Made by a program: the position numbers and the translations under genes. Below the pieces are notes generated by a model that saw nothing but the letters and a program-made list of their open reading frames with translations, had not been told where the DNA came from and searched no databases. Source: a virus. From it: 64,000 nucleotides of DNA. Position 1 is the stretch's first letter; every line of letters starts with the position of its first letter. Location of the stretch: IMG/VR virus record IMGVR_UViG_3300034050_000451, positions 186,001 through 250,000 of that record; one strand, given 5' to 3'. Positions 7,670 through 17,287 of the stretch are shown here, in pieces.

Positions 7670-7978
7670 TTATAGGTATTTAGGTCCGTACATACCATAT
7701 TTAGCAGTTCCATCAAAGATATTACCTCTACTATGTTTAGCAGCGGCTCTCCAACTAGCAGGTTTCATTAAATCACCTTTTTTGATTGGAGCTCCTAAGT
7801 GTTCACCATCAACCATTGATACGAACCCCCAAACAGTGGTTCCATGCATCATTTTAATAAATTTACTACCTTTATTGGGTAATATTGGAGTCCAAGCTTT
7901 GTGAGTAAAGGTATTGTTCCACTCAGTTTCTAACTCAGTATTAACATTTTCTAACCAGATTTCGAATTTTGTTTTCAT
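7670..7978 (-). CDS. Conserved phage protein, 102 aa
   Basis: The body MMHGTTVWGFVSMVDG...GDLMKPASWRAAAKHSRGNIFDG is a glycine- and tryptophan-bearing, conserved-looking domain that I associate with large phages, function unknown. It starts right after the conserved leader and promoter P7. Confidence 0.7.
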   Translation of the reverse strand: MKTKFEIWLENVNTELETEWNNTFTHKAWTPILPNKGSKFIKMMHGTTVWGFVSMVDGEHLGAPIKKGDLMKPASWRAAAKHSRGNIFDGTAKYGMYGPKYL

Positions 7979-10806: not shown

Positions 10807-10838
10807 CAAATATACGAAAAATATTTTAATCTACCAAA
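10807..10838 (-). promoter_or_regulatory. Bacteroidota-type promoter (P9), chaperonin operon
   Basis: Perfect TTTG, 20 bases, TATATTTG. It overlaps the 3' end of the gene at 10826-11140 and drives 10784, groES and groEL. Confidence 0.9.
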
Positions 10839-11140
10839 CTATTTTTAAGTTTTAGTAATTCTGCACATCTTTCGTAATATTCATCACCCTCATATGCCTT
10901 TAACAATTTTTCAACTGTATCATACAACTCTTCTTTTGTAATCAATAGATTAGTTACAATATCCATACCATTTGAATCTTTGTCATCAAATGAGTAGATT
11001 CGCATGATTGAAAATGACATTTTGTCAGATTTTGCGAAATCAAATACATTCTCATACAATAATTGGTTGATTGTATCCCTATTTAATTCTACCCATTTTA
11101 ATATGGAATCGTTGTTAAGATATAGTTTTTTGGTTTTCAA
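10826..11140 (-). CDS. Hypothetical protein, 104 aa
   Basis: Alpha/beta protein (MKTKKLYLNNDSILKWVELN) with an acidic C-terminal helix. No family recognised. It is the last gene of the operon that carries the bilin genes, five bases after the reductase, so it may be linked to them only by position. Confidence 0.65.
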   Translation of the reverse strand: MKTKKLYLNNDSILKWVELNRDTINQLLYENVFDFAKSDKMSFSIMRIYSFDDKDSNGMDIVTNLLITKEELYDTVEKLLKAYEGDEYYERCAELLKLKNSLVD

Positions 11141-11145
11141 TATTT

Positions 11146-11787
11146 TTATATTTCTGGAAATAGTACTTTTTGCATAAAGTAGGTAGCCCTCTCTTCTCCA
11201 ATTTCCGTTTTCAATGCACCAAATGTACGAGGATTATCAGCTTGGTGTCTACAATATATGTTTTGGTTTTCTATAATAATTCTCAACTCATTTGAATCGG
11301 ATGTAATATCTACTTCACTTCTTAATTGTTCAATATATCGTTGAAATACCCCCCAAGCAGTTTCAAATATTTTCTCATATTCATCTTCAGTAGGTCTTAC
11401 TGCTATGAATTGTTCCGAAAATACCGATGCCCAATAAGGTAACTTTCTATCGGTGTTCCATTCAGTATTATGCCAATCTTCATCATAAAGGACTGGGGAA
11501 CAATCTATAAATGCTCCACTTATCTTTCCACTATTAGTACCACCAACTACATCAAATCCAAAGATTGGTGCTTTTGAGTTCTTATGTGGGAAACAAGTGA
11601 TGTGACAAACTGCAAGTGAACCTACAAAGTATCTCTCTACGTGAGCTAATCTGAAAATTGGTGATTCGTATCGGTAGTTCTCCCAACCATAATCATCAGT
11701 ATGGAGTTCTTTAACCCCATCGATTGATTCGATGAGGTTTTTAAACTTCTCACTATGATATGTTATACGTTCTACTAAATCGTACAT
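11146..11787 (-). CDS. Ferredoxin-dependent bilin reductase (PcyX/PebS-like)
   Basis: 213 residues. The family core is clear: APIFGFDVVGG (residues 73-83), then GAFIDCSPVL (91-100), the FGxD...DxSP signature in which the second Asp (here 95) donates protons to biliverdin, and a C-terminal IYCRHQADNPRTFGALK...YFMQKVLFP, the substrate-pocket end of FDBRs. These enzymes reduce biliverdin with ferredoxin to phycobilins (phycoerythrobilin, phycocyanobilin). The gene overlaps heme oxygenase by 13 bases, so biliverdin would be made and used together. Which bilin it makes cannot be read. PcyA, PebS or PcyX subtype is unresolved. Confidence 0.88.
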   Translation of the reverse strand: MYDLVERITYHSEKFKNLIESIDGVKELHTDDYGWENYRYESPIFRLAHVERYFVGSLAVCHITCFPHKNSKAPIFGFDVVGGTNSGKISGAFIDCSPVLYDEDWHNTEWNTDRKLPYWASVFSEQFIAVRPTEDEYEKIFETAWGVFQRYIEQLRSEVDITSDSNELRIIIENQNIYCRHQADNPRTFGALKTEIGEERATYFMQKVLFPEI

Positions 11788-12287
11788 TTTTCTAATTCTT
11801 TAAAGATTTCAATCATAAAATCAAATCCTGCATTTACCTCATCTGCCCATTCATCTTTTTGAATAGCTCTGATTGAACCAGCACATTCCATCATATTTTC
11901 AAAATCATACATTTTACCTTGACCGGGTGTTTTCTCTTTCATCATCTGTCCACCAAACATAATTGCTAAGTAGTTAAGATAGATATGAGCATTTGCCTCA
12001 TCTTGTGTTAATCCTTTTAGATATTGAATATATGATTCGGTTGCTGAATCAGGTGAAACATCTGATACACCTAAGTATCCCAAATCCTCACTTACAGCTG
12101 ATACTCTCTTTAATCCCTCATTTGGAAATTCAAAGTTGTTTTCCAATGTTGAAAAGATTGCTAATTGTGATTTAAGATACTCACCATATTGAGATGCGGT
12201 TAATCTACCACTAAACATCAATCCGTTGAATGGCATTCTTTCAGCCAATTTGTGCTTTTCAGCAGTTGCTTCTTTTAAAGGTAACAT
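11775..12287 (-). CDS. ho1: Heme oxygenase
   Basis: 170 residues. LKEATAEKHKLAERMPF carries the proximal heme ligand (His12), followed by GRLTASQYGEYLKSQLAIF and the distal-helix glycine pair in LAIMFGGQMM. It opens heme to biliverdin, Fe2+ and CO with reducing equivalents from ferredoxin. It is short relative to bacterial/cyanobacterial HO (about 200-240), mainly at the C-terminus, but the catalytic helices are all there. It is coupled to the bilin reductase downstream by a 13-base overlap and lies one base after the PspC-like gene. Confidence 0.9.
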   Translation of the reverse strand: MLPLKEATAEKHKLAERMPFNGLMFSGRLTASQYGEYLKSQLAIFSTLENNFEFPNEGLKRVSAVSEDLGYLGVSDVSPDSATESYIQYLKGLTQDEANAHIYLNYLAIMFGGQMMKEKTPGQGKMYDFENMMECAGSIRAIQKDEWADEVNAGFDFMIEIFKELEKCTI

Positions 12288-13664: not shown

Positions 13665-14768
13665 TTAATTTGATAATGGTGCTTTGATTGCTGGATGTGA
13701 TTGATAATTTTCAATTTCAAATTGCGCAATACTTTGGTATTCTATATCTATTCCTGTTATAGGACAAGGATTGAATTTTAGCGTAGGTAACTCAAATGGT
13801 TTTCTACTAATTTGTTCTTTTGCTTGTTCAATGTGATTTAAATACAAATGTGTATCACCTAAATTTCCAATCAATTCATCAGGTATCATATTTACTTCTT
13901 TAGCAATGATTTCTAATAACAATCCATAAGATGCTATGTTGAATGGTAAACCTAAGAATGTATCTACTGAGCGTTGATTCCACATTAATGAGATTGCTCG
14001 AGTTGGAATACCCCAATCGTTCATTAATATCTCATTTGTATCAACATGAGCTGCAAACTTAGATTCTGGTCTTTGACCTAAACATACACCTATTCTCTCT
14101 TCATGGCTCAACTCTCTCGTATAAACTTGAAATCCATAATGACAAGGTGGAAGAACCATTTGGTCTAATTCACCTACATTCCAAGCATTAACCATTAATC
14201 GTCTTGAGTCTGGATTTGTTTTAAGGTCATTGATTAGGTTTTGTATTTGGTCTACACCACCTTTGTTAATCTCACCCGCTTCATGTGCCCACTTCCTCCA
14301 TTGCTTACCATAAATTGGTCCTAATTCACCGTATCTACTAGCAAACTCATCATCTAATTTAATTGTATATATAAATTCTTCTTGAGTCAAAAGTCTTATT
14401 TCATCCCCTACAACAAGTAGTAGTCTGTCATAAATCATATCATCTAAATCCCCAATGTCAGATTTTAACCACATCTTATCAACAGTATCAACGTAGTTTT
14501 TATAGGCATCACCATTCCAAATGTTACAACCATTATCAACCAAATACTTAATATTAGTATCACCCTTCAAAAACCATAGTAATTCAGTTACAATAGTTTT
14601 AAATGGCATCTTCTTAGTTGTTAGAAGTGGAAATCCATCTTTCATATTGTGTCTGATAGTATAACCAAATATTGACTTTGTGCCAGTACCAGTTCTATCT
14701 TTCTTATCAATACCATAATCTAAAATGGTTTGAAGTAAATCCTGATATTGTTTATCTATTTTATTCAT
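13665..14768 (-). CDS. thyA: Thymidylate synthase ThyA, long form
   Basis: 367 residues against about 264 in E. coli. DRTGTGTKSIFG (phosphate loop), the dimer arginines in SRRLMVNAWN, the catalytic LPPCHYGFQVY (Cys209), QRSVDTFLGLPFNIASYG and the C-terminal DxHxYxNH are all present. It converts dUMP to dTMP with methylene-THF. The extra length is mainly an insertion of about 50 residues between NGDAY and GPIYGKQWRKW (near residues 90-146) and a further stretch around residues 212-230 (YTRELSHEERIGVCLGQRP). T4-like phages use ThyA for DNA precursor supply. Confidence 0.95.
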   Translation of the reverse strand: MNKIDKQYQDLLQTILDYGIDKKDRTGTGTKSIFGYTIRHNMKDGFPLLTTKKMPFKTIVTELLWFLKGDTNIKYLVDNGCNIWNGDAYKNYVDTVDKMWLKSDIGDLDDMIYDRLLLVVGDEIRLLTQEEFIYTIKLDDEFASRYGELGPIYGKQWRKWAHEAGEINKGGVDQIQNLINDLKTNPDSRRLMVNAWNVGELDQMVLPPCHYGFQVYTRELSHEERIGVCLGQRPESKFAAHVDTNEILMNDWGIPTRAISLMWNQRSVDTFLGLPFNIASYGLLLEIIAKEVNMIPDELIGNLGDTHLYLNHIEQAKEQISRKPFELPTLKFNPCPITGIDIEYQSIAQFEIENYQSHPAIKAPLSN

Positions 14769-16251: not shown

Positions 16252-16662
16252 TTATACTGTATGTTCTATTTGTACTCTTACACAATTTTGTGGTAATCTA
16301 CTAACGTGTCTATAATTGTTAATGTATCCCATCATATTTGCTGAACCAATTGCGTTTGCTGAATGTATTACAACATCAACAACAGCATGTCCGTCCAACC
16401 ATTGATTAACCAACCATTTAGTGCAATCCATTCCAGTCTTTTCCTTAATATTATCATAGTTTAATTCATAATTGTGATATACATTCTTATGCCACTCTGC
16501 CATTGCAGTATCTCCTAAATCGTGGTCCAATGAAATCAAGTCAATATTTTCCAATCCAATGTAAGTAACTGTATCAATAAATTGTTCATAGTTTCTAACA
16601 ACTACCCAAGATTCTTTATCTACTGGAGTTCTTACATCATCTAAGTAAATTCTTTTTTTCAT
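16252..16662 (-). CDS. Cyclic-phosphate-processing receiver-like protein
   Basis: 136 residues. KRIYLDDVRTPVDKESWVVV and ENIDLISLDHDLGDTAM form the acidic DD...DHDLG pocket of the small receiver-like (cREC) domain that occurs alone or with nucleotide-processing enzymes. The predicted role is metal-dependent handling of a phosphorylated or cyclic-phosphate nucleotide; that is from family context, not shown here. Contains a cysteine/tryptophan CTKWLVNQWLDGH stretch. Confidence 0.75.
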   Translation of the reverse strand: MKKRIYLDDVRTPVDKESWVVVRNYEQFIDTVTYIGLENIDLISLDHDLGDTAMAEWHKNVYHNYELNYDNIKEKTGMDCTKWLVNQWLDGHAVVDVVIHSANAIGSANMMGYINNYRHVSRLPQNCVRVQIEHTV

Positions 16663-17255: not shown

Positions 17256-17287
17256 CAAATATACGAAATTAATTTGGAATATCCAAA
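17256..17287 (-). promoter_or_regulatory. Promoter with dyad at -33 (P10), thyA/bilin operon
   Basis: TTTG, 20 bases, TATATTTG; inverted repeat ATTTGG-N5-CCAAAT (17272-17288) spans the -33 box. Confidence 0.8.

Follow-up and report, generated by a model that had tools for sequence, protein, structure and literature searches.

Cassettes that pair a heme oxygenase (HO) with a ferredoxin-dependent bilin reductase (FDBR) are already known from pelagiphages and from a freshwater phage (PMC11480375 and earlier work cited there), and the 2024 paper describing them called bilin genes in phages of hosts without phycobilisomes enigmatic (PMC11480375). PcyX, the marine reductase, and alphaproteobacterial PcyA have been united as an 'AX' clade, and Glu76 is missing from both PcyX and pre-PcyA (PMC10151467). 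The enzyme of the freshwater phage CB_2, which is without the Asp55 of PcyX, yields phycocyanobilin (PCB) (PMC11480375).

Here we describe such a pair in a stretch of 64,000 nucleotides (the window), which corresponds to positions 186001-250000 of the 270,865-base virus record IMGVR_UViG_3300034050_000451. The record encodes a T4-type terminase and a tail sheath, and the virus is a giant (jumbo) bacteriophage, most likely with a Bacteroidota host. The broadest claim that we draw from the locus and its relatives is that there is a distinct class of HO without an ionisable distal residue, which spans jumbo phages and Bacteroidota chromosomes and is joined in viruses to a PCB-forming reductase, with phages making a phycobilin in non-photosynthetic bacteria; we would give this claim an even chance of being correct. 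The features on which the analysis rests are collected in Table 1.

Table 1. Features of the window, with positions counted from its first nucleotide.
Feature	Position	Strand	Basis
Bilin reductase (FDBR), 213 aa	11146..11787	-	PF05996, PDB alignment, column check, tree, model and fold match
Heme oxygenase (HO), 170 aa	11775..12287	-	PF01126, model and fold match, alignments
HO distal-helix motif codons, YLAIMFGGQ (canonical YLGDLSGGQ)	11946..11972	-	Alignments
HO/FDBR frame overlap, 13 nt	11775..11787	-	Frames read in the window
PspC-domain small membrane protein, 56 aa	12289..12459	-	PF04024, 2.2e-14
Thymidylate synthase ThyA, in the closely spaced gene run upstream of the pair	13665..14768	-	PF00303
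ORF of 104 aa, 5 nt after FDBR	10826..11140	-	Frame read
Bacteroidota sigma-A-type promoter, TTTG-N20-TATATTTG	17256..17287	-	Closest match of this type ahead of the thyA/HO/FDBR run
Second promoter of the same type	10807..10838	-	After FDBR, before ORF86-groES-groEL

The two predicted enzymes and their active sites

The reductase matches Pfam family PF05996 (E=4.5e-23; 82.5 bits against a curated cut-off of 31) and PHROG 7278, 'ferredoxin oxidoreductase' (1e-18), its best matches in a sequence search of the PDB are PcyX and PcyA, and its AlphaFold model (pLDDT 92.5) has Nostoc PcyA as top fold match (TM 0.84). Profile score and fold thus place it in the FDBR family, as the initial annotation had proposed from the sequence. 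In the PDB alignment, its Glu51, His62 and Asp79 align with Glu76, His88 and Asp105 of PcyA, and this triad is kept in all 47 distinct viral sequences of the window's family; one of our search patterns includes the Glu, and loci found by HO alone show the same triad. In all 16 marine PcyX sequences, by contrast, the Glu76 position is taken by Asp.

In the FDBR tree, the window's family (support 91/93) is sister to marine PcyX (100/99), and the branch that joins them (100/100) is separate from cyanobacterial and cyanophage PcyA. The tree compares the family with marine PcyX, cyanobacterial and cyanophage PcyA and PebS/PebA, and only its PcyA/PcyX side was used because long branches split PebS/PebA from the rest. 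The window protein falls outside the cyanobacterial PcyA group, and its score against the NCBIfam PcyA equivalog (95.4 bits) lies below the cut-off of 206. The likeness to known phage pairs that the initial annotation drew therefore holds in part: the family adjoins PcyX in the tree but carries PcyA-type residues. An identification as PcyX itself was ruled out, given Glu in place of Asp55 in every member and a position sister to the PcyX clade. Because the PcyA-type triad is kept, and because the CB_2 enzyme forms PCB in spite of lacking Asp55, the predicted product is most likely PCB.

The neighbouring protein belongs to the HO family by its profile (PF01126, E=2e-12; 47.8 bits, cut-off 23), by its predicted structure (pLDDT 94.5; top PDB fold match Synechocystis HO-1, TM 0.83) and by its proximal His12, which bears out its initial identification. 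Textbook heme oxygenases depend on an acidic distal residue, Asp140. The initial annotation overlooked that the window HO has Ile109 at this position, together with Ala108 at that of Gly139 and Asn105 at that of Arg136, so that the canonical distal motif GD[LM]SGGQ reads A-I-M-F-G-G-Q. This is a property of the whole family: among 49 HO relatives, the Asp140 position holds Ile (20), Leu (26) or Met (3) and never Asp, the Arg136 position holds Asn (46) or His (3), and the Ser142 position holds Phe or Tyr; no variation is seen at the proximal His, at His132, or at Gly143 or Gly144. The family thus lacks the distal Asp140/Arg136 hydrogen-bond network of canonical HOs. The segment from GGQ to the last helix is also shorter in the alignment. 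The patterns used to find the loci did not select for the distal motif, and Asp140 is retained in 71 of 71 HOs linked to marine PcyX.

What this substitution means for catalysis can be read in two ways. Human HO-1 becomes a peroxidase when it carries the D140A mutation (PMC5623701), and with both Asp140 and Arg136 missing, heme oxygenation by the window HO is not assured. Plant HO-1, on the other hand, is naturally without Asp and Arg yet active, with Ala-His in an alternative network (PMC7948506). A search of the literature, limited to the open PMC subset, found no natural HO with a hydrophobic residue at the Asp140 position, a silence that is absence of evidence and no proof of novelty. On balance, the window HO would probably convert heme to biliverdin.

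Gene neighbourhood, promoters and host

The initial annotation described adjacent, overlapping genes, and the pairing extends well beyond the window. When IMG/VR was scanned with HO alone, 29 relatives came back, each followed directly by FDBR, and the 58 viral loci retrieved with the FDBR profile all have HO directly upstream. In 54 of the 55 loci that were measured, the two frames overlap. Additional viral scans seeded by the divergent members L043 and L067 gave no new loci. Both genes are under purifying selection (dN/dS 0.04-0.43 in ten near-relative pairs). An intact PspC ORF, unmentioned in the initial annotation, lies 1 nt upstream of HO. In 17 loci thyA is close to the pair, and in five of these it comes immediately after FDBR; the ORF that follows FDBR in the window belongs to a homology cluster covering 11 of the compared loci and has no Pfam family above its cut-off.

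Several further observations concern the virus and related loci. The window's gene run includes a cREC_REC domain protein (PF20274, 1.4e-21; cyclic-phosphate processing receiver; 16252-16662, minus strand). Just outside the window, a dense cluster (L100, virus record 180001-186100) holds 23 tRNAs, a tmRNA with the tag AVELSTMTFEDAMSFVGADYAVAA and a GOLLD RNA (257 bits), and one further tRNA (Asn) lies inside the window at 52-124. Giant ORFs of 3,927 and 3,994 aa were seen at L092 6246-18029 and L093 104-12088, respectively. In L086 (5992-6595), FDBR is broken across two frames and a gap follows HO; L015 has a partial fragment of a second FDBR copy downstream (7674-7823). The sub-group L041, L043, L044, L045 and L046 has 40-44% GC and more Shine-Dalgarno (SD) motifs. 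Its FDBR is close to that of the window, but its HO branches off below almost all the rest, so that reassortment of the two genes may have occurred there, and the host may be different.

The TATATTTG box occurs within 10.1-18.5 kb only at the two promoters of Table 1, which flank the thyA/HO/FDBR run, so that co-transcription of the pair with thyA, suggested initially, is soundly inferred. Boxes of the form TAnnTTTG mark the Bacteroidota sigma-A promoter type (PMC9723704). Across the whole virus, TTG-N19-22-TAnnTTTG stands upstream of 26 of 277 genes, far above chance (antisense control 2; shuffled controls mean 0.94, maximum 4), and just 6% of genes are preceded by an SD-like motif; the promoter architecture and the lack of SD sequences that were initially noted are thus borne out in counts. 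The same promoters were absent from the controls, namely Prochlorococcus phage P-SSM4 (0/53, 30% SD), Pelagibacter phage Mosig (0/11, 55% SD, that is 6/11 genes in the one stretch checked) and Flavobacterium phage immuto (0/69, 3% SD). The result for immuto means that the motif is no universal mark of Bacteroidota phages.

The terminases nearest to that of the virus are those of Microcystis phage Mel-JY01 (55.7%) and immuto (54.7%), the latter of which likewise encodes thyA and groES-groEL. A GroEL search among plasmids, aimed at the host, had Parabacteroides as top match and Rhizobium next. Among 396 Bacteroidota genomes, the HO family was matched in 44, the phytochrome domain PHY in 40 and FDBR in one, as a broken copy. 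This copy, an FDBR fragment with an internal stop (L034 5272-5911), shares 80% identity over 139 aa with virus L084, and the gene after it is 64% identical to the post-FDBR gene of virus L085; the contig is titled as a Bacteroidetes MAG and may be chimeric. Close kin of the viral HO (57-60% identity to their best viral matches) occur in three Bacteroidota genomes, in one case in a 3.3-Mb contig; they share the Asp140-less motif, stand without FDBR alongside and group inside the viral HOs, with L017 (98/88). In two of the three genomes (G082 and G219), neither FDBR nor PHY was matched. We do not claim a viral origin for the Bacteroidota HOs, since a single clade of viral HOs was not rejected by AU tests (p 0.14 and 0.09) and transfer may have run in either direction. 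Taken together, the sigma-A promoters, the lack of SD bias, the kinship with a Flavobacterium phage, the close HO kin in three Bacteroidota genomes and the decayed FDBR in a fourth make the Bacteroidota host put forward in the initial annotation well supported, if not proven.

Proposed heme breakdown and its rivals

We consider it fairly probable that the pair would carry out both steps from heme through biliverdin to PCB. In the mechanism we propose, HO would cleave heme of the host, yielding biliverdin IXalpha, CO and Fe2+, and FDBR would reduce biliverdin by four electrons, most likely to PCB. The initial annotation had proposed looking for a ferredoxin elsewhere in the virus; as no Fer2 ferredoxin was found in 33 viral records (the window's own of 270 kb among them, several others being fragments), the electrons would come from host ferredoxin. 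By draining biliverdin, FDBR would pull the HO reaction, and the gain for the phage would be the dismantling of heme, be it for iron, heme detoxification or CO. That the pair serves a jumbo phage as a module of two genes for heme catabolism, with heme breakdown as the benefit and FDBR removing biliverdin, is a proposal to which we give an even chance. Heme dismantling is favoured because the virus has no bilin-using protein of the families searched, because no intact FDBR was found in the putative host phylum, and because solo HO kin sit in chromosomal settings in Bacteroidota genomes without FDBR or phytochrome. However, the missing Asp140 and Arg136 and the lack of a viral Fer2 ferredoxin in the records searched count against the proposal. 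Moreover, if iron were the sole need, HO would suffice, and the constant linkage to FDBR suggests that the bilin itself may matter; this linkage speaks most strongly for a bilin role.

One such role, raised in the initial annotation, is chromophore supply, in which PCB would load a host bacteriophytochrome that normally binds biliverdin and so alter host light signalling during infection. We consider this unlikely, although FDBR is missing from no viral locus and PHY occurs in about 10% of the sampled Bacteroidota genomes (40/396), often near an HO gene, which leaves room for a host phytochrome. The majority of these genomes are without one. Moreover, bacteriophytochromes bind biliverdin through a cysteine other than the PCB-binding one. 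On the viral side, PHY was absent from 33 records (several of them fragments), and GAF, flavodoxin and phycobiliprotein from 19, making a viral bilin-binding partner of the PHY, GAF or phycobiliprotein families unlikely. Still, in E. coli a phytochrome assembled with the product of the CB_2 phage PcyA is photoactive (PMC11480375).

The substitutions at Asp140 and Arg136, found in 49 of 49 relatives, and the peroxidase activity of D140A human HO-1 (PMC5623701) would also fit an HO-like protein that acts as a heme-binding peroxidase, chaperone or sequestration protein, with FDBR taking biliverdin from elsewhere. This we hold to be quite improbable, given that plant HO-1 is active without both residues (PMC7948506), that the proximal His and Gly143/Gly144 are invariant, that in the viruses the gene is always accompanied by an FDBR whose biliverdin-reducing triad is intact, and that most candidate hosts lack another source of biliverdin, with any HO in just 44 of 396 Bacteroidota genomes. 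A cyanobacterial host, whose phycobilisomes the pair would keep supplied, as proposed for cyanophages, is very improbable. Mel-JY01 is indeed among the closest phages by terminase and sheath in the phage collection, but in the 50 kb that were read, this phage (L104, PP395634.1) itself has sigma-A-type promoters ahead of 8 of 79 genes, and it shows no HO or FDBR match. Its cyanobacterial label therefore deserves checking: it may stem from a non-axenic culture, and the true host may be a Bacteroidota companion. The promoter counts, set against those of the cyanophage control, the lack of phycobiliproteins in the 19 records and an FDBR clade different from the cyanobacterial one also speak against cyanobacteria.

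Comparison with known cassettes

The pair is predicted to make a blue-green bilin in bacteria that would have no light-harvesting use for such a pigment. What appears to be new, within the open PMC subset of the literature, is a large clade beside marine PcyX in Bacteroidota-type viruses, with an Asp140-less HO that is common to Bacteroidota chromosomes. The breadth of this clade, its probable placement in another host phylum, the lack of AlaS and of any viral protein recognisable as bilin-binding, and the stand-alone HO kin together make the question of iron versus chromophore testable. In addition, the window-type HO could show whether heme oxygenation requires Asp140 or some polar residue in its place.

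Among cyanophages, pcyA and pebS encode viral FDBRs of the same fold, and pcyA shares the catalytic triad with the window FDBR, but these phages infect cyanobacteria, their enzymes belong to another clade, and no HO gene is annotated in the regions examined. The phage CB_2, with vhemO and vpcyA, resembles the window virus in its freshwater origin, in having a PcyA-like FDBR without Asp55 and in a host without phycobilisomes, which for the window virus is the most likely case (PMC11480375). It is compared here by its published description. CB_2 is assigned to Methylocystis and carries valaS (PMC11480375), whereas AlaS (TIGR01821) had no match in the window's 270-kb record or 32 others, several of them fragments; the window virus therefore does not have the three-gene hemO-pcyA/X-alaS cassette. 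A motif search of the marine PcyX loci for AlaS-like ORFs, which might have linked them to CB_2-like phages, likewise found none.

A close relative is the marine hemO-pcyX cassette of Mosig-type pelagiphages (PcyX_EBK42635), which shares with the window an HO directly upstream of FDBR, a T4-like phage and a non-cyanobacterial host, and whose FDBRs form the sister clade. The two differ in Asp versus Glu76 in the reductase, in the distal residue of HO (Asp140 in 71/71 versus 0/49) and in expression signals, the Mosig stretch being SD-rich and free of Bacteroidota-type promoters. For the HO itself, a close parallel is plant plastid HO-1 (GmHO-1, AtHO-1), which has also lost Asp140 and Arg136 and has Ala at the Gly139 position; the plant enzymes place His at the Asp140 position within their alternative hydrogen-bond network, whereas the phage family has only Ile, Leu or Met there.
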